A DNA stretch of 64,000 nt, taken from NCBI GenBank assembly GCA_016841965.1, contig JAEANN010000056.1:1-64000 (forward strand). The letters are read 5' to 3'. The notes under the pieces are model-generated. The model did no database searches and was not told the DNA's origin. It saw only the letters and a program-made list of their open reading frames with translations. The DNA is from Candidatus Roseilinea mizusawaensis. Lineage in GTDB: Bacteria; Chloroflexota; Anaerolineae; J036; Brachytrichaceae. Of the stretch, positions 1-59,534 are shown piece after piece. The translations under genes were made by a program, and so were the position numbers. Within the stretch, counting starts at the first letter, position 1. Each line of letters opens with the position of its first letter.

Positions 1-1
1 C

Positions 2-3000
2 GCGCCGGGCAGCTTCAACAAGACCGCACCGAGCAACGGGGCGACGGGGCAGCCGACCAACGTGACGTTGCAGTGGGGCGCGGCGAGTGGGGTGAACCAC
101 TACCGCTACTGCTACAGCACGACGAACGGGTGCACGCCGTCCATCGGCGTGGGCACGAACATCAGCGTGGCGCTGAGCGGATTGACGCCGGGCACAACCT
201 ACTACTGGCAGGCGCGGGCGTGCGCGGATAGCGGCTGCACGGTGTTCACTGATGCGAGCGGCGGGCACTGGAGCTTCACGGTGGTCGGCGCGCCGGGCAG
301 CTTCAACAAGACTGCACCGAGCAACGGGGCGACGGGGCAGCCGGCCAACGTGACGTTGCAATGGGGCGCGGCGAGTGGAGTGAACCACTACCGCTACTGC
401 TACAGCACGACGAACGGGTGCACGCCGAGCACGAATAACGGGACGAACACCAGCGTCAACCTGACCGGCCTGACGCCTGGGGCGACGTATTACTGGCAGG
501 TGCGCGCCTGCGCGGACGGCGGCTGCACAGTATTCACCGATGCGAACGGCCCTGGCGGGCACTGGAACTTCACGGTGGTCAGCGCGCCGAGCGGGAGCGG
601 CTTCAGCAAAATCAGCCCGGCCCACACCGCCACCAACCTGCCGACCAATCCGACGTTGAGCTGGGGCACAGCCGGCGGCGTAGTGGACAAGTATGAATAC
701 TGCGTGAGCACGACCACGTCGTGCAGCACGTGGACGGACGTTGGCGTGAACACCAGCGCCTCGGTTGTTGGCCTGGCGGCCGGGACGCTATATTACTGGC
801 AGGTGCGGGCGTGCAACAGCGCCGGCTGCACCGAGGCCAACAGCGGCAGCTTCTGGTCGTTCCAGACCGCGGCGACGGTGGGCAGCTTCAACAAGTTTGC
901 TCCGAGCAACGGGGCGATCAACGTCAACACCAACACGGCGCAGTTGCTGTGGACGGCGGCGGCCAACGCAAACGACTACAAGCTGTGCTTGGGCACGGCG
1001 CCCAACAGTTGCAACATCGTCGGCGGCGGGCCGGGGCAGTTCGCGAGCCTGGGCAACACCTACTTCCGCGTGCTGAACGACCTGCCGCTGCAGCCGAACA
1101 CGACGTATTACTGGCAGGTGCTGGCCACCAACGGCACATACACCACGCCGGCCAACGGCAGCACGCTGGCGTTCTGGTCGTTCACCACGCTGCCCAACGG
1201 GCCCGACCCGTTCAACAAGCTCAGCCCGAGCTTAAACGCGACCAACGTGCCGACGCAGAACGTGACGTTCCAGTGGCAGGCGGCGACCGGCGCGGTGAGC
1301 TACACGGTGTGCGTGGGGGCGTATGCGGGCGATTGCGCTTACAGCCTCTCGGTCAATAGTGGGACGAGCGCGGTGCTGGCCGGGCTGCTGCCGGCGGGGG
1401 CGACGCTGGTGTGGCAGGTGACGGCGCACAACGCGGGCGGCAGCACCGGCGCGGACAACAACACTTGGTGGCCGTTTACTACGGTGCCGAACGCGCCGCA
1501 GGCGTTCACCAAGATCAACCCGCCGAACAACGCCACCGACCAGCCGCTGGGTGTGAATCTAACCTGGCAGGACACGCCGGACGAGACGTATTACAGCGTG
1601 TGTGTTGGCGTCAACATTGGCGTGTGCAGCCTGGTCAACACTACGACGACTGTGGCCAGCTACGCGTTGACGGGGCTGGATTACGGGACGCAGTATTTCT
1701 GGCAGGTGAGCGCGTGCAACGCGGGCGGGTGCACGCCGGCCAACAACAGCGTGGCGTGGAGCTTCAAGACGCTCAACCCGCCCGTGCCCGGTCCGTTCCA
1801 GAAGACGCACCCGGCCAACGGCGCGGTTGGCGCGCCGACCAACCCGGCCGTGCTGCAGTTGACGTGGACGGCTGCTGATTCAGCGGATGGGTATGAGGTG
1901 TGCATGGGCACAGTGCCGGGCGCGTGCGACCTGAGCGGCGGTGGGTTCCAGGACGTGGGTCCTTACACCGCGCGTTACATCAACCAGTTGCCGTTCAGCG
2001 TGACGTTGCAGCCGGGTACGACGTATTACTGGCAGGTGCGCGCCTACAGCACGCTGACTGCGACGCGGACGTTTGCCGACAACGGGGTGGACTTCTACTT
2101 TGTGACGCAGAGCAGCAGCGGGCCGGCGGCATTCAGCAAGGATGCGCCGCTGAACGGCAGCTTCAACCTGCCGACGGCGAGCTTGACGCTGAAGTGGTTT
2201 GCGGCGGCCGGCGCGACGAGCTACGAGGTGTGCGCCGGGACGGCGGTCAACAGTTGCGACGCGATGCCGGGCAACGCCTGGCTGAACGTGGGCAGTGCGC
2301 TGAGCTACACGCTGAGCAACCTGGCCCCCGGGACGACCTATTTCTGGCAGGTGCGGGCGAAGAACGGCAGTGGGACGACGCCGGCTAATGGCGGCGTGTG
2401 GTGGACGTTCACGACGAAGAACGCCTACCCGCCGGCCGAATTTGCCAAGCAGTCCCCGCCACATCTGGCGACGGGCGTGGTGACCACCGGCCTGACGCTG
2501 AGCTGGGCGGCGAGCACAGGGGCGACGGGGTATCAGGTGTGCATTGGCAGCGCGCCGGGGCTGTGCGAGGCGACCGGCGGCTGGGTGAACGTGGGCAACA
2601 ACACCAGTTGGGTGGTGACGCCGGCGCTGCAGGCGGCGACGACGTATTGGTGGCAGGTGCAGGCGCTGGGCGGCACCTTCAGCGTTCAGGCAAACGGCGG
2701 GCAGTGGTGGGCGTTCACCACGCGGCCGGATGGGCCGGCAGACTTCAGCAAGCAGCAGCCGCCGCAGAGTGCGATCGGCGTGCCGACGGCGACGGCGGTG
2801 CTGAGCTGGACAACGGCGCTTGGCGCGAGCAACTATGAGGTGTGCTTGGGCACGCAGGCCGGGCTGTGCGACGTGATCGGCACATGGCTCAACGTGGGCA
2901 ACGTCACGGCGTGGAATCCGCCAGTGCTGCAGGCGGCGACGACCTACTGGTGGCAGGTGCGGGCGGTGAACAGCAGCGGCGGGCGCACGCAGGCGAACGG

Positions 3001-32288: not shown

Positions 32289-32312
32289 CGGCATACGCAA
32301 CCAGCACAGTCT

Positions 32313-32335
32313 GAAATCTAAAATCCAAAATCGGC
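32313..32335. repeat. Heptameric repeat (family A) abutting the VOC start codon
   Basis: GAAATCTAAAATCCAAAATCGGC then ATG 32336. Confidence 0.75.
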
Positions 32336-32833
32336 ATGGTGCAGGGTTTCTTTCATGTCTCGTTCACAGTGCGGGACCTCGACGTCAGCGTGAAGTGGTA
32401 CACCGAAGTGCTGGGGCTGGAATATGTGCGCAGCCAGGAGCAGCACAATGAATACACCGCCCGGCTGGTAGGGTTCCCCGGCGCGCACCTCAGAGTCGCT
32501 CAATTGCGGGTGCCCGGCCAGCCGTTGGCCCCGCGCGCCAATCACCACATCGAGCTGGTTGAGTATGTGCATCCGCAGGGGCGGGACGATCTTGATCTGT
32601 CCACCAACAACACCGGCTCTGGCCACTGGGCGTTCATCGTGGACGATATCCACGCTGAGTTCGCGCGCATGAAATCGCTGGGGGTGCGTTTCAAAGCCGA
32701 TGCACCCGTGGCCATCGAGGCCGGCGTCAACAAGGGCGGCTACACTGTCTATTTCTTTGATCCCGATGGCATCACCATGGAGCTGATTCAGCCCCCGCCG
32801 CCTGAACAGGCGGCTTTGAATCAACCATCGTGA
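32336..32833 (+). CDS. VOC superfamily protein (glyoxalase/dioxygenase-like)
   Basis: FFHVSFTVRDLDVSVKWYTEVLGLEYV...GSGHWAFIVDDI...GYTVYFFDPDGITMELIQ. Confidence 0.85.
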   Translation: MVQGFFHVSFTVRDLDVSVKWYTEVLGLEYVRSQEQHNEYTARLVGFPGAHLRVAQLRVPGQPLAPRANHHIELVEYVHPQGRDDLDLSTNNTGSGHWAFIVDDIHAEFARMKSLGVRFKADAPVAIEAGVNKGGYTVYFFDPDGITMELIQPPPPEQAALNQPS

Positions 32834-34225: not shown

Positions 34226-35323
34226 TCAGCCGCTCAGGCCGTTGGTTTTGCGCAGCCGGCAAGCCTGTTGGTACAGCCACCAGCGCGCCGGCGAGAATAC
34301 TTGCCCCCATGCACCGATGTGGCGCACGATCTGTCCGCCGAAGCCGCGCTTGAAGCGGTAAACGCCCCACAAGCCATCGTTGCGATCTTTGAAGTTGGCT
34401 TCGAGCGTGGCTTCATCTTCATCCGGCACGCCCCACAGGTCATAGGTGCGGCAGCCACGTTCGCGCGCCCAACGCATGGCTTCCCATTGCAAGAGGTAAG
34501 TTGGCATCAGCTCACGGTCTTCGTTGCTGCTGGCCCCATACAAGTAGGTGGCGCGCTGGCCGAACGCGACGACGACCAAGCCGGCTAGCGTGCGCCGGTT
34601 GTGCTCGGCGATCAGCAGGCGCGCACGATCAGCGTTGAGCGGGCCAAACAGATTCAGAAACGATCGGTAATACGATTCCGGGTAGATCGAAAAGGCGTTG
34701 CGCTCGGCTGTGGTTTGTGACAGGCTGTAGAAAGCGGCTATGTCGTTTGACCCGCCTTCGCGCACAGTCACACCCTTGCGCCGAGCCAAGCCGATGTTGT
34801 AGCGCGTTTTCTGTTTCATGCTGGAGAGGATGTCCACTTCCTCTTCCACGTCCAGATTCACCCATATGGTACGCCGAGGTTGCACGTGTAGGTCGAGCGG
34901 GAATAGTCCGCAGCCGGCCAGGGTGCGCCGGTCAGAGGGGGTATCGAGTAATTCCGGCTCGACGATCAGGCCGATGGCGCCCCGGCTGTGGGCTGTTTTC
35001 GCAGCGATTTTGATGACGGCTGCGGCTGTATCGCGATTATCCCAGTTGACAACAGGCCCACGCGGCACATAGGCAAGCATGCCCAGGCCGAATGGCAGAC
35101 GTCGAAACAGAATGATCGAGCCGCCGATTAACTCTGCTTCGGCGTTGACGACAGTCGAGCGCACATATTGCCAGCCATGCTGAGATTTCAGCTCGCCCCA
35201 CTTGCTGGTTTGCAGCAAATGCCCGTAAGCGTGTTGTTCGACAAAAGCATCCCAACGGGCTGCCGGGAACACAGCGGCTTTCTTTTCTTTACGAGCGCGG
35301 ATCGGTTCGTCGGGGGTCAGCAT
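34226..35323 (-). CDS. FemAB/FemX-type peptidoglycan bridge aminoacyltransferase-like
   Basis: HLLQTSKWGELKSQHGW; KTRYNIGLARRKGVTVREG; LLQWEAMRWARERGCRTYDLWGVP. Confidence 0.88.
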   Translation of the reverse strand: MLTPDEPIRARKEKKAAVFPAARWDAFVEQHAYGHLLQTSKWGELKSQHGWQYVRSTVVNAEAELIGGSIILFRRLPFGLGMLAYVPRGPVVNWDNRDTAAAVIKIAAKTAHSRGAIGLIVEPELLDTPSDRRTLAGCGLFPLDLHVQPRRTIWVNLDVEEEVDILSSMKQKTRYNIGLARRKGVTVREGGSNDIAAFYSLSQTTAERNAFSIYPESYYRSFLNLFGPLNADRARLLIAEHNRRTLAGLVVVAFGQRATYLYGASSNEDRELMPTYLLQWEAMRWARERGCRTYDLWGVPDEDEATLEANFKDRNDGLWGVYRFKRGFGGQIVRHIGAWGQVFSPARWWLYQQACRLRKTNGLSG

Positions 35324-35324
35324 T

Positions 35325-35364
35325 GCGATTTTGGATTCTGGATTTTGGATTTCGGATTTGCAAT
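35325..35364. repeat. Heptameric repeat (family A) abutting the femX-like start codon
   Basis: Plus strand cgattttggattctggattttggatttcggatttgcaatc; minus strand reads ...CAGAATCCAAAATCGCA-ATG. Confidence 0.8.
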
Positions 35365-35395
35365 CGCCGTGTGGCGGTGCATGGATCCAAAGTCG

Positions 35396-35420
35396 CAAGT
35401 CACAAATCGCAAATCCAAAA
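35396..35420. repeat. Heptameric repeat (family A) flanking the tRNA-Pro gene
   Basis: CAAGTCACAAATCGCAAATCCAAAA. Confidence 0.65.
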
Positions 35421-35429
35421 TGGCTTCAA

Positions 35430-35504
35430 TCGGGGAACCGGGATTTGAACCCGGGACCTCACGGACCCGAACCGTGCGCGCTACCAGGCTGCGCCACTCC
35501 CCGA
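35430..35504 (-). tRNA. tRNA-Pro (CGG anticodon)
   Basis: Reverse complement TCGGGGAGTGGCGCAGCCTGGTAGCGCGCACGGTTCGGGTCCGTGAGGTCCCGGGTTCAAATCCCGGTTCCCCGA; anticodon loop TTCGGGT; CCA not encoded. Confidence 0.95.
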
Positions 35505-41740: not shown

Positions 41741-41769
41741 GGCACACCCTCCCGATTTCGGGCTTTGGA

Positions 41770-41790
41770 TTGACGATTGACGATTGACGA
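41770..41790. repeat. Heptameric repeat (family B) (TGACGAT)3
   Basis: ttgacgattgacgattgacga, ~30 nt upstream of the minus-strand gene starting at 41740. Confidence 0.85.
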
Positions 41791-41819
41791 ACGAGATTGG
41801 CCTTCGTAATCCTTAGCCC

Positions 41820-48158: not shown

Positions 48159-48177
48159 CTCTGTGTCCTGGACTGTG

Positions 48178-48203
48178 GATTTTAGATTTCGGATTTTGGA
48201 TTA
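48178..48203. repeat. Heptameric repeat (family A) upstream of ridA
   Basis: ggattttagatttcggattttggatt. Confidence 0.75.
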
Positions 48204-48244
48204 AGGCTGGTGTGCGCGGAATGCGCAACACCAGTCGCGCCACA

Positions 48245-54015: not shown

Positions 54016-54681
54016 ATGATCCAGGACTCTCCGATGCTGATTATCGAGAACGGCCAGATGGCAGGTCAGCGCTGGCTGATCGACAGCGACTGTGTCATCA
54101 TTGGCCGCGAGGCACAGGCAGTTCATCTGCTCTTGCCAGAGCGGCAGGTGTCTCGCAAGCATGCCAAGATCGAGCGAACGCCGAATGGTTTCGTGTTAAC
54201 TGACCTTGACAGTAAAAACGGCACCTACCTCAATGGCAAGCAAGTCCGCGAGCCACAGGTGCTACAGGATGGCGATGAAATTCAGATCGCGTTGTGTGTC
54301 AAGATTGCTTTCGTGGGGAGTGATGCGACTGCCCCGCTTAATGCGCGTCCTATCAGCCAGGGTATGCGCGCGATCACGCGCGGCATCCGGCTGGATAAGG
54401 AGCGCCGGCGTGTATTTATGGCCGAATACGAACTGGAGCCGCCTCTCTCTGTGCAGCAATATCGCCTGCTCGAACTGCTGATTGACGCCGATGGCGCCCT
54501 GGTCAGCCGGCAGGAAATCGTCGAGCGCGTGTGGGAGGGTGAAAACGCCTACGGTGTGAGCGAACAAGCTATCGACGCACTCGTGCGCCGGCTACGCGAT
54601 CGCCTCGCCGAACGCGACCCCGACCACGAGTACATCGTTACCGTGCGTGGCCACGGCTTGCGTTTTGAAAACCGTTATTGA
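54016..54681 (+). CDS. FHA domain fused to OmpR/PhoB-type winged-helix DNA-binding domain
   Basis: FHA: VIIGREAQAVHLLLPERQVSRKHAKIERTPNGFVLTDLDSKNGTYLNGK; wHTH: LSVQQYRLLELLIDADGALVSRQEIVERVW...EQAIDALVRRLRDRLAERDPDHEYIVTVRGHGLRFE. Confidence 0.93.
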   Translation: MIQDSPMLIIENGQMAGQRWLIDSDCVIIGREAQAVHLLLPERQVSRKHAKIERTPNGFVLTDLDSKNGTYLNGKQVREPQVLQDGDEIQIALCVKIAFVGSDATAPLNARPISQGMRAITRGIRLDKERRRVFMAEYELEPPLSVQQYRLLELLIDADGALVSRQEIVERVWEGENAYGVSEQAIDALVRRLRDRLAERDPDHEYIVTVRGHGLRFENRY

Positions 54682-56713
54682 TCTTCTGCTACGCCGGGAG
54701 CGGCCCCCGTTGTGGTTCACCCTGGGCCTGCTGCTTGTGCTGGCTGCTGCGCTCGTCTTGCGCCTGCACCGGCTCGACGCGCAGTCGTTCTGGTACGACG
54801 AAGGCAACAGCGCGCGCATTGCCGAGCGCCCTGTGCAGCTCATCATCGCGGGTGCAGCCGGCGACATCCACCCGCCGCTGTACTACCTGGCGCTGCATGT
54901 CTGGCGCGCGCTGTTCGGCGAGAGCGAGGCGGCGCTGCGCAGCCTGTCGGTTGCCTGCGGGGTGGGCCTGGCGCTTTTGGCTGGCCTGACCGCCCACGCG
55001 CTTTTCGGCCCGCGCGCCGGCCTGGTGGCTGCTGTGCTGTTGGCTGTGTCTCCCTTTGCCATCTACTATAGCCAGGAAGCGCGCATGTATGCGCTGCTTG
55101 CCCTCGAAGCGGCTGCCTCCACTTATGCCCTGCTGCGGATTTTGGGTTTTGGATTGGGGACTTTGGATTCGCCCACCCAATCGTCAATCGTCAATCCTTC
55201 AATCGTCAATTCTTCAATTGCCAGTCGTCAATCGTCAATCGCCCTGTTTGTCCTGTCCACTGCCGCCGGCCTCTACACGCACTACGCCTATCCCTTTGTC
55301 ATGATTGGGCAGGGTGTGGGTGTGCTCATCTGGTTTGCGGCCTGGGCTGCGCGCTGCGCTGTGCGCGGGCCGGCCTGGGGGGCGCTGGCTGTTTTCGCCG
55401 GCGGCAACCTCGCGGCCATTGCGCTGTTCCTACCCTGGCTGCCGACTGCCATTCACCAGCTCACTGCGTGGACGGTAGCCCGGCCAGACTACGTGCTGGG
55501 GCCGGCTCTGCTCGACGCCTGGCGCTGGGTTGTGGTGGGGCGCACGCTGCCGCTCGATGAAGCCGGGCCGGCCATGCTGATACTGAGCGCGCTGGCGCTG
55601 ATCGGGCTATGGCCGGCTGCTCCATCCAATCCTCAGTCGTCAATCAGCGCCCGGCGGTTCCTGCCGGCTCTGTTCATGGCGCTGATGGCGCTGGCGCCGT
55701 TTGCCCTGCTGTTTGCCTTCAATCTGTATCGAGAGTCGTATCTCAAGTTTTTGCTGGTTGTCGTGACGCCGCTGTGTGTGTTGGCTGCGCGTGGCATAGC
55801 CGGCCTGTCTGCCGCCTGGCTCCCTGCGCAAGCCGGGCGCACAGGGCGGCTGCTTTCTGCCGGCCTCGCTATCGCCCTCACGAGCGGCGTCGTTGCGCTG
55901 CTGTGGCCCGCGCTCAACAATTTGTATGACAACCCGGCCTATGCCCGTGACGACTATCGCGGCATCGCCCAACTGATCCAGGCTGACGCGCGTCCCGGTG
56001 ACGCCGTGTTGTTCAACGCCCCGAATCAATGGGAGGTGTTCACCTACTATCATCGCCCAGAGCGCCAGTTGGCCCCGGCGATCGCGCTGACCTATCACCC
56101 CGCAGACGATGCCGTGGTCGATGCGCAGATGAGGCCGATCCTTCAGCAACACAGCCGCTTGTTTGTGCTGTACTACGGCGAGCGCGAATCTGACCCTGAG
56201 GGCCGCTATGAACGTTGGCTGGCGGGCAACGCGTTCAAGGCCGATGAGCAATGGGTGGGGCACATTCGCCTGGCGGTGTATGCAACCCGGCTTGCCTCGA
56301 CCAGGTCGGCGCTTGCCGCCACGTTCGGTGATGCCATCCGGCTCGAAAGCGCCGTCGGTGCGCTCGACCCGCAGTCAGCGGGTGGCTTGGTGCCGCTGGA
56401 ACTGCGCTGGCGCGCGCAGACGACGCTGGACACGCGATACAAGGTGTTTGTGCATATCGGTCTGCCCGATGCGCCGCCGGTCGCACAAAACGATTCCGAG
56501 CCGCAAGCTGGCCTGCGCCCAACCGACACCTGGCAGCCTGATGAGGTGATCGTTGATCGCCGCGCGGTCTGGTTGAAGCCTGGCACACCGCCGGGGCGCT
56601 ATGGCGTCTACCTGGGTTTGTATGACGGCGCAACCGGCCAGCGCCTGCCGGTGACTACTGCCGGCGCCCCGCAAAGCGACCGCCTGTTGCTTGGCGAGAT
56701 CGAGGTGCGGTAG
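54647..56713 (+). CDS. GT39/ArnT-like polytopic glycosyltransferase
   Basis: FWYDEGNSARIAERP; YYLALHVWRALFGESEAALRSLS; many TMs; GTG start overlapping the previous gene. Confidence 0.87.
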   Translation: MATACVLKTVIDLLLRRERPPLWFTLGLLLVLAAALVLRLHRLDAQSFWYDEGNSARIAERPVQLIIAGAAGDIHPPLYYLALHVWRALFGESEAALRSLSVACGVGLALLAGLTAHALFGPRAGLVAAVLLAVSPFAIYYSQEARMYALLALEAAASTYALLRILGFGLGTLDSPTQSSIVNPSIVNSSIASRQSSIALFVLSTAAGLYTHYAYPFVMIGQGVGVLIWFAAWAARCAVRGPAWGALAVFAGGNLAAIALFLPWLPTAIHQLTAWTVARPDYVLGPALLDAWRWVVVGRTLPLDEAGPAMLILSALALIGLWPAAPSNPQSSISARRFLPALFMALMALAPFALLFAFNLYRESYLKFLLVVVTPLCVLAARGIAGLSAAWLPAQAGRTGRLLSAGLAIALTSGVVALLWPALNNLYDNPAYARDDYRGIAQLIQADARPGDAVLFNAPNQWEVFTYYHRPERQLAPAIALTYHPADDAVVDAQMRPILQQHSRLFVLYYGERESDPEGRYERWLAGNAFKADEQWVGHIRLAVYATRLASTRSALAATFGDAIRLESAVGALDPQSAGGLVPLELRWRAQTTLDTRYKVFVHIGLPDAPPVAQNDSEPQAGLRPTDTWQPDEVIVDRRAVWLKPGTPPGRYGVYLGLYDGATGQRLPVTTAGAPQSDRLLLGEIEVR
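55137..55242 (+). repeat. Heptameric repeats (families A+B) embedded in frame in the GT39-like CDS
   Basis: gattttgggttttggattggggactttggatt... caatcgtcaatcgtcaatccttcaatcgtcaattcttcaattgccagtcgtcaatcgtcaatc, encoding ILGFGLGTLDSPTQSSIVNPSIVNSSIASRQSSI. Confidence 0.9.
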
Positions 56714-58223: not shown

Positions 58224-59534
58224 ATGACCAACCAATCCCTTCCCAAACTGCGTGATGTGCCGGCCCAGGACCGGCTGGCGATTCTGGCCCAAATGGCCAA
58301 CCTGGGTGAAGTTGATACCGCAGCCTTGCGGAACGGCTTGTCGCTCGATCAGGCCGACCACATGATCGAAAACGTGGTCGCCACTTATGCGTTGCCGCTG
58401 GGCATCGTCACCAACCTGGTGGTTAACGGGCGCGAGGTGCTTGTACCGATGGTCATCGAAGAGCCGTCGGTGGTGGCCGGGTGTAGCTTTGCTGCAAAGC
58501 TGGCGCGGGCCGGCGGTGGTTTCATTGCCAGCAGCGACGAGCCGATCATGATTGGCCAGATTCAAGTCCTGGACGTGCCGGACATGGACGCTGCACGGCG
58601 GGCGATTGATGATGCCACGCCGGAGCTGATCGAGTGGCTAAATGTGCTGAACCCGCCCACGCGCGATCCGTATACTCGCTCGGTCGGCATCGAAACGCGG
58701 GTCGTCGCCGGCGAGTTCGAATCGACAATTCAAAATCCCAAATCTAGGATTGAGATGCTGGTGGTGCATGTGCTGTATCACGCCGGCGATGCCATGGGCG
58801 CCAACATGGTCAACACTGCATGCGAAGCACTGGCGCCGAAGATCGAGATGCTCACCGGCGGGCGGGTCAATCTGCGCATTTTGTCCAACCTGGCCGATCG
58901 TCGGCTGGCCCGCGCGCGCTGCACGATTCCTGCCGCCGCGCTGGAGGATGAGCGCCGGCCCACCGCTGCAACTCCAGGCGCCCGTATCCAGGATCGCATC
59001 GAAGAGGCCTCATTGTTTGCCGAGCTGGACCCGTATCGCGCTGCGACCCACAACAAGGGCATCATGAATGGCATCGATGCGGTGGCCCTGGCGACCGGCA
59101 ATGACTGGCGGGCCATCGAGGCCGGCGCCCATGCCTATGCGGCGCGCAATGGCCGCTATACCTCGCTCACGCGCTGGCGCGTGAACGCACAGGGCGATCT
59201 GAACGGCGAGATCGAATTGCCCCTGGCAGCCGGGATGGTGGGCGGGGCGACGCGGGTGCACCCGTCGGCGCGCGCCGCGCTCAAGATCATGGGGGTGAAG
59301 ACTGCGCGCGAGCTGGCCGAGGTGATGGCGTGTGTGGGGTTGGCGCAGAACTTTGCGGCGATTCGCGCGCTGGCTAACGAAGGCATTCAACGTGGTCACA
59401 TGGCGCTGCACGCGCGACAGGTCGCGCTGGCTGCCGGCGCGACCGGCGAGCAAGTCGCGCGCATCGCGCAGCAACTGGTTGCCGAGCGCAATTTTAAGGT
59501 TGATCGCGCAAAGGAATTGCTGGCCGGCCAGTAG
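58224..59534 (+). CDS. mvaA: Class II hydroxymethylglutaryl-CoA reductase
   Basis: IEEPSVVAGCSFAAKLAR; HAGDAMGANMVNTACEALAPKIEMLTGGRVNLRILSNLADRRLARA; THNKGIMNGIDAV. Confidence 0.93.
   Translation: MTNQSLPKLRDVPAQDRLAILAQMANLGEVDTAALRNGLSLDQADHMIENVVATYALPLGIVTNLVVNGREVLVPMVIEEPSVVAGCSFAAKLARAGGGFIASSDEPIMIGQIQVLDVPDMDAARRAIDDATPELIEWLNVLNPPTRDPYTRSVGIETRVVAGEFESTIQNPKSRIEMLVVHVLYHAGDAMGANMVNTACEALAPKIEMLTGGRVNLRILSNLADRRLARARCTIPAAALEDERRPTAATPGARIQDRIEEASLFAELDPYRAATHNKGIMNGIDAVALATGNDWRAIEAGAHAYAARNGRYTSLTRWRVNAQGDLNGEIELPLAAGMVGGATRVHPSARAALKIMGVKTARELAEVMACVGLAQNFAAIRALANEGIQRGHMALHARQVALAAGATGEQVARIAQQLVAERNFKVDRAKELLAGQ

Follow-up and report, generated by a model that had tools for sequence, protein, structure and literature searches.

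In-frame heptamer arrays of a genome-wide dispersed type within a putatively cytoplasmic loop of a GT-C transferase from Candidatus Roseilinea mizusawaensis

The window analyzed here, i.e., the whole stretch of 64,000 nucleotides, contains an open reading frame for a polytopic protein with two oppositely oriented heptamer arrays in its interior (Table 1). The protein matched the Pfam profile PMT_2 (PF13231) with 41.5 bits, above the curated cut-off of 26.1, and its AlphaFold2 model (mean pLDDT 91.1) displayed the GT-C fold with ArnT (PDB ID: 5ezm) as the best PDB fold match (E = 2.3e-9), so that both the profile and the fold placed it among the GT-C/PMT_2 proteins. The host protein shares with ArnT and other GT-C transferases not only this fold but also an acidic motif that is conserved in the first loop on the catalytic side, and differs from them in that a search of the PDB with the transferase sequence returned no relative at the sequence level. 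With regard to a place in CAZy GT39 proper, the protein O-mannosyltransferases, none of the NCBIfam equivalogs scored above its own cut-off against the transferase, and the top fold match was ArnT and not a PMT; judged from profile and fold, the protein is designated as PMT_2-like only.

Table 1. Coordinates of the transferase gene and of the heptamer arrays in the window.
Feature	Position	Strand	Description	Basis
Host gene, PMT_2 GT-C transferase ORF	54647..56713	+	688 aa, polytopic	
First arm	55137..55176	+	GATT-strand heptamers GATTTTG GGTTTTG GATTGGG GACTTTG GATTCGC	sequence
Second arm	55177..55241	+	AATC-strand heptamers (CAATCGT)n, about 9 units, decaying, opposite orientation	Tandem Repeats Finder
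Second degenerate trace	55619..55660	+	encodes residues 325-338, APSNPQSSISARRF, in frame, in another loop on the same side as the main array	sequence; L069 17/21
Decayed in-frame heptamer array, HMG-CoA reductase gene	58713..58770	+	FESTIQNPKSRIEM	

The first-pass annotation had described two repeat families as lying back-to-back in this gene and being translated in frame within a polytopic glycosyltransferase, and the sequence, frame, and peptide all bore out the latter statement, with bases 55139-55240 encoding ILGFGLGTLDSPTQSSIVNPSIVNSSIASRQSSI (residues 165-198). Both families were indeed present back-to-back, but they proved to be variants of a single heptamer, GATTNNN (a GATT core plus three variable bases), arranged head-to-head, i.e., convergently, and not separate repeats. 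Tandem Repeats Finder reported the second arm at 55178-55241 with a period of 7, 8.9 copies, and a score of 75, and GATTGAC appears within it as GTCAATC on the plus strand. The smaller insertion that had been noticed near 55619-55650 was also recovered, as a degenerate heptamer trace. As had been claimed, the frame continued intact through the arrays, and the ORF was under purifying selection when compared with that of the nearest relative, G001 (dN 0.11, dS 0.56, dN/dS about 0.2), while substitution was relaxed in the array loop (pN 0.21 vs 0.10 in the remaining gene). The AlphaFold2 model likewise agreed with the proposed position of the peptide between transmembrane helices, residues 167-190 forming a block of low confidence (pLDDT about 56) flanked by the confident helices H148-166 and H191-211; residues 322-332 formed a second low-confidence loop (pLDDT 72-76). 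What the earlier reading had missed was the common core, the phylum-wide recurrence, and the restriction to one side of the membrane.

The GATTNNNGATTNNNGATTNNNGATT pattern (GATTNNN in four successive units) gave 93 matches in the 3.86-Mb host genome and 0 for the reversed control. Tandem periods were assessed in 20-kb stretches, comprising 400 kb of the host genome plus the window, and 400 kb from each of two relatives. At a fixed threshold, 26 period-7 arrays were found in 464 kb of the host genome and 44 in 400 kb of G021, a complete, single-contig, Roseilinea-like genome, as opposed to 0-5 arrays each at lags 4-6, 8-11, and 13 in both, and autocorrelation over the 464 kb identified lag 7 as the sole strongly enriched tandem period. 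Because period 7 alone was enriched and the pattern matches stood at 93 vs 0, the focal array is not a product of chance; it is one member of a set of 7-nt arrays spread across the genome. Besides GATTNNN, this set contained GAGTNNN, CAGANNN, GATCAGN, AATTGAN, and more, and thus the unit length is conserved and the unit sequence is not.

The two families had been regarded as otherwise intergenic, which did not hold strictly: array density in the host genome was 0.26/kb in intergenic DNA vs 0.025/kb in coding sequence, and in-frame copies also occurred in other genes, including the HMG-CoA reductase gene in the same window, whose G001 orthologue carries about five clean AAAATCC-type units (LDSQSQIQNPKSKIEM). 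Between divergent genes, 4 arrays were observed vs 12.6 expected by length. A convergent in-frame heptamer pair was also seen at L155:10919-10988 in a 1060-aa protein, just before the motif VFTTRPD; from this motif, the protein is likely a class I aminoacyl-tRNA synthetase, and the pair is probably an insertion in its editing region. In-frame arrays were seen in still further proteins. The only RNA family detected within the window was a tRNA at 35430-35503, with none at the array; a convergent GATTNNN-type pair (35315-35426) adjoins the 3' side of this minus-strand tRNA gene, and short arrays of the GATTGAC, GATTTTN, and AAATCCA types lie at 41767-41795, 48161-48213, and 32308-32348.

G001, which belongs to the same genus (82% identity), possessed both arms, with GATTTTG GATTTTG GATTGGG GATTTTG GATTCGC as the first arm, more CAATCGT units, and an extra duplication, and it had an intact CAATCGT array of about four units at the equivalent of the second trace (55619-55660). 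No array was evident in the third congener, G002, the loop of which was 14 residues (42 nt) shorter; the loop region of residues 152-212 measured 61 aa in the focal protein, 78 aa in G001, and 47 aa in G002. No repeat-free orthologue of equal length was found among the nearest taxa.

Lag-7 arrays were further detected at four loops and with many different units in 35 of 90 non-redundant homologues, mostly from metagenome assemblies, these genes having 80 lag-7 segments in all, and the median length of the loop region was 41 without and 49 with such arrays. The lag-control segments in the same 90 homologues numbered 7, 2, 5, 0, and 0 at lags 4, 5, 10, 11, and 13, respectively, and 14 at lag 8. 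This homologue set was not chosen for arrays, because the query patterns that fetched the named loci sit outside the loop. The units included GATTGGN (Roseilinea), AATTGAA (G020), AATTCAC, AGTGCGG, GTCGTGC, CAAACGT, TCATTTG, TTCATCC, and others, and the recurring peptides also differed by lineage (SSIVNRQ, GIGDWRL, SKIEKAA, and ECGVRSA); unrelated heptamers have settled in the same transferase loops in other lineages. When the loop columns were left out of the tree, the arrays at three loops required a minimum of 14, 12, and 5 changes between presence and absence. In transferase loop 1, the close relatives L117 and L138 shared array length and register but had different units (CGGTAAT vs CAGTTTT), which suggests in-place, concerted turnover of the units. 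The arrays of G017 and G021 were identical in the loop; a recent transfer of the loop alone between these genomes was rejected, since identity was patchy over the whole gene and the identical loop was not special.

The array-bearing loops comprised residues around 167-190, 237-241, 322-332, and 391-397, with single cases also at the N-terminus and near residue 121 (helix labels assigned to array positions are smeared by a few residues through the alignment), and all of these loops lay on one side in the AlphaFold2 model. All 61 strong arrays fell in or next to loops of the non-catalytic side, and the catalytic-side loops and the C-terminal domain (34,076 aligned residues) were never hit by a strong array (0/61). 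The opposite side presents, in its first loop, the conserved acidic pair D51/E52, which we take to mark the catalytic side as in the ArnT/PMT architecture. By analogy with the GT-C architecture, the array-bearing side would be cytoplasmic.

The transferase family contained 61 arrays in 157 kb (0.39/kb), whereas the other coding sequence at the same loci contained 8 in 287 kb (0.028/kb) and the intergenic DNA 0.28/kb. When arms were merged into array loci and gene ends were excluded, the density was 0.267/kb in the transferase, 0.050/kb in other polytopic genes (a set that still includes the G017 and G021 orthologues), and 0.014/kb in the remaining genes, with the gene calls outside the transferase made by a simple codon-score script. 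This excess, 5- to 19-fold relative to other genes, is large if nothing but tolerance is at work; tolerance does not fully explain the difference from other membrane proteins, and room is left for a function.

The unit type followed the repertoire of the host genome. A transferase locus was present in 30 genomes, 12 of them GATT-rich (at least 40 genomic matches); 8 of these 12 had GATT arrays in the gene, as opposed to none of the 18 poorer ones (Fisher p = 8e-5, not phylogeny-corrected). The association was not strict, as the GATT-rich genomes G022 and G005 had no array in the transferase gene. G020, with one GATT match and 99 AATTGAR matches, carried AATTGAA-type arms in its transferase. 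This match between unit type and genome repertoire favors copying from resident arrays over purely local expansion.

With respect to orientation, the arms were convergent with the G/purine-rich strand first: for opposite arrays within 60-120 nt of each other, genic and intergenic, this strand took the leading place in 25-27 pairs, as against 0-2 pairs with the reverse arrangement, and the order reads alike from either strand. Arms at one site shared 5.0 of 7 bases on average, as compared with about 4.0 for shuffled partners, and several convergent pairs had plainly different units in their two arms. Since the arms are only moderately alike, full complementarity and hairpin selection do not explain the rule; this degree of likeness fits both independent copying and decayed palindromes. 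The sole clean filled/empty pair was that of G021 and G017 at a stop codon, these genomes sharing only about 25 kb within the stretches sampled and few empty sites being readable; the two shared TAGAG at the edge and there was no clean target duplication. The TAGAG edge fits priming on an existing array and, as a single case, is no proof of break repair.

The explanation that we favor, with a probability of roughly 0.72, is that a cytoplasm-facing loop of the GT-C transferase acquired a copy of a heptamer repeat dispersed in the host genome, which is translated there in frame, and that arrays of this kind spread by copying. Existing arrays would serve as the source of new ones at DNA ends or at stalled forks; if both 3' ends at a gap or break gain the like strand and are then joined, a convergent G/purine-first pair would result; slippage and quasipalindrome correction may then alter, homogenize, or erode the units. 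Since 7 mod 3 = 1, a tandem heptamer encodes one and the same cycle of seven residues whichever frame is read, and a stop-free unit is therefore safe in every frame; GATTGAC, which has a stop, is borne in the gene only on the opposite strand (peptide VNRQSSI). To survive in a gene, an array would then need nothing more than an overall length that is a multiple of 3 and a functionless loop. Neutral dispersal of DNA, tolerated where the protein is indifferent, is most likely, and the array peptide itself probably does nothing specific. Much more tentatively, and with doubt prevailing, one 7-nt-stepping copying process that adds the G/purine-rich strand to 3' ends, hence the convergent pairs, may give rise to bacterial heptamer arrays of many sequences and, in Chloroflexota, keep rewriting the cytoplasmic loops of a GT-C enzyme with genome-specific heptapeptides; if true, such a process would continually supply new protein sequence in frame.

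Instead of being neutral, the array could be a repeatedly selected element acting at the level of RNA or translation, for example one that introduces a pause or a structure between transmembrane helices and so aids co-translational insertion. The recurrent hits in four loops of one family at the 5- to 19-fold density given above, the location of all arrays at loops of one side, and the perfect or near-perfect heptamer palindromes of some Roseilinea-group copies would all suit such an element, but the folding of the focal array did not surpass that of shuffled sequences, either as RNA (z = +1.42) or as DNA (z = +0.79), more than half of the homologues, including G002, had no array, and unit sequence, length, and position vary freely among lineages, which makes this explanation unlikely. 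The same folding results led us to reject a hairpin formed by the focal array, in RNA or in DNA, and a MITE/RPE with a stable palindromic fold. MITE, RPE, or REP elements with fixed ends were rejected as well, there being no common ends and the unit, length, and position differing by lineage. A G-quadruplex was rejected for want of the four tracts of at least three G residues, only two such runs (GGG and GGGG) occurring in the first arm and none in the second.

Glycosyltransferase genes are commonly phase-variable, and gain or loss of a 7-nt unit, not being a multiple of three, could in principle shift the frame of a surface-glycan enzyme; the unit number does differ between G000 and G001. If unit numbers were random, however, two of every three states would break the frame, and yet the ORF was continuous across the loop in 90/90 homologues, none having been set aside as broken, so that no unit-number change with alternating frame was seen at the species level among the homologues compared. 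The identical loop arrays of G017 and G021 and the heterogeneous units, which disfavor slippage, also speak against a switch, and we consider phase variation very improbable. The prospects are just as poor for the inserted peptide being a selected cytoplasmic linker, e.g., an interaction site: conservation of the gene and retention of the loop between G000 and G001 speak in its favor, but the peptides are wholly different among lineages, the loop is modeled with low confidence, and its substitutions are relaxed. An assembly or binning artefact of this metagenome-assembled genome can be dismissed almost entirely. Repeats are easily misassembled, and the genome consists of 59 contigs, but the same arms recur in an independently assembled orthologue (L010/L069), the loop is also occupied by arrays in Roseilinea homologues of other independent assemblies, among them the single-contig G021, and the frame is intact everywhere.

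The arrays described here have their closest counterpart in the GGGAATC and GGGGA(C/T)T heptamers of Xanthomonas and Nostoc, which are heterogeneous, genome-wide, and mostly intergenic with some intragenic, rare between divergent genes, and frequently paired convergently, with 70 such cases for the 186 repeats of Xcc (Rehm et al., 2015; PMC4692102); that paper dates the over-representation of heptameric arrays in bacteria to a 2007 study. Genome-wide 7-nt tandem units, convergent pairs (the focal array included), and intergenic enrichment with avoidance between divergent genes were all found here too, and even the GATT core is shared, since on the other strand or in another register GGGAATC of Xanthomonas corresponds to GATTCCC and the unit of Nostoc to GATTGGG/GACTGGG (PMC4692102). 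The quadruplex class is defined by four G-tracts, whereas the focal units are mostly not G-rich (GATTTTG, GATTGAC); the host here is a member of the Chloroflexota, and recurrent in-frame settlement in one protein family is not described in the sections available (PMC4692102). The focal arrays are a coding, loop-restricted, recurrent form of the known heptameric arrays. The TAACTGA direct repeats of Beggiatoaceae and Cyanobacteria, for which frame-dependent stops were discussed as a coding limit, are also dispersed heptamer arrays, but consist of a fixed single unit, lie mainly upstream of start codons, and are direct and not convergent (MacGregor, 2015; PMC4679880). The (GATAGRA)n satellites of Chloroflexus aurantiacus represent a scattered heptamer-derived family in the same phylum, with another unit, and in-frame coding arrays are not a subject there (PMC6749651). 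The Rickettsia palindromic elements (about 150 bp, with conserved sequence and peptide) are likewise dispersed repeats tolerated in frame in protein genes (Ogata et al., 2000, as reviewed in PMC10969869), but here there are no defined ends, only heptamers that change with the lineage. The literature on Chloroflexi heptamers and in-frame repeats offered little beyond these four sources.

The transferase family, with arrays in defined loops of 35/90 homologues, empty relatives, and full frames, constitutes a natural record of array origin, and the purine/G-first convergence together with the match between unit and genome places testable constraints on the copying mechanism. For annotation, peptides such as NRQSSIV, QNPKSKI, DWRLGIR, and SAECGVR signal translated DNA repeats and not conserved domains. 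Transferase loop 1 also held an inverted CGCAGAGA-type repeat in L036 (G028) and an inverted purine-run repeat in L031 (G044), and thus non-heptamer dispersed repeats occupy this loop too. A longer repeat lies at the start of the window (1-589), where a 288-bp unit is present in two tandem copies that are 85% alike.
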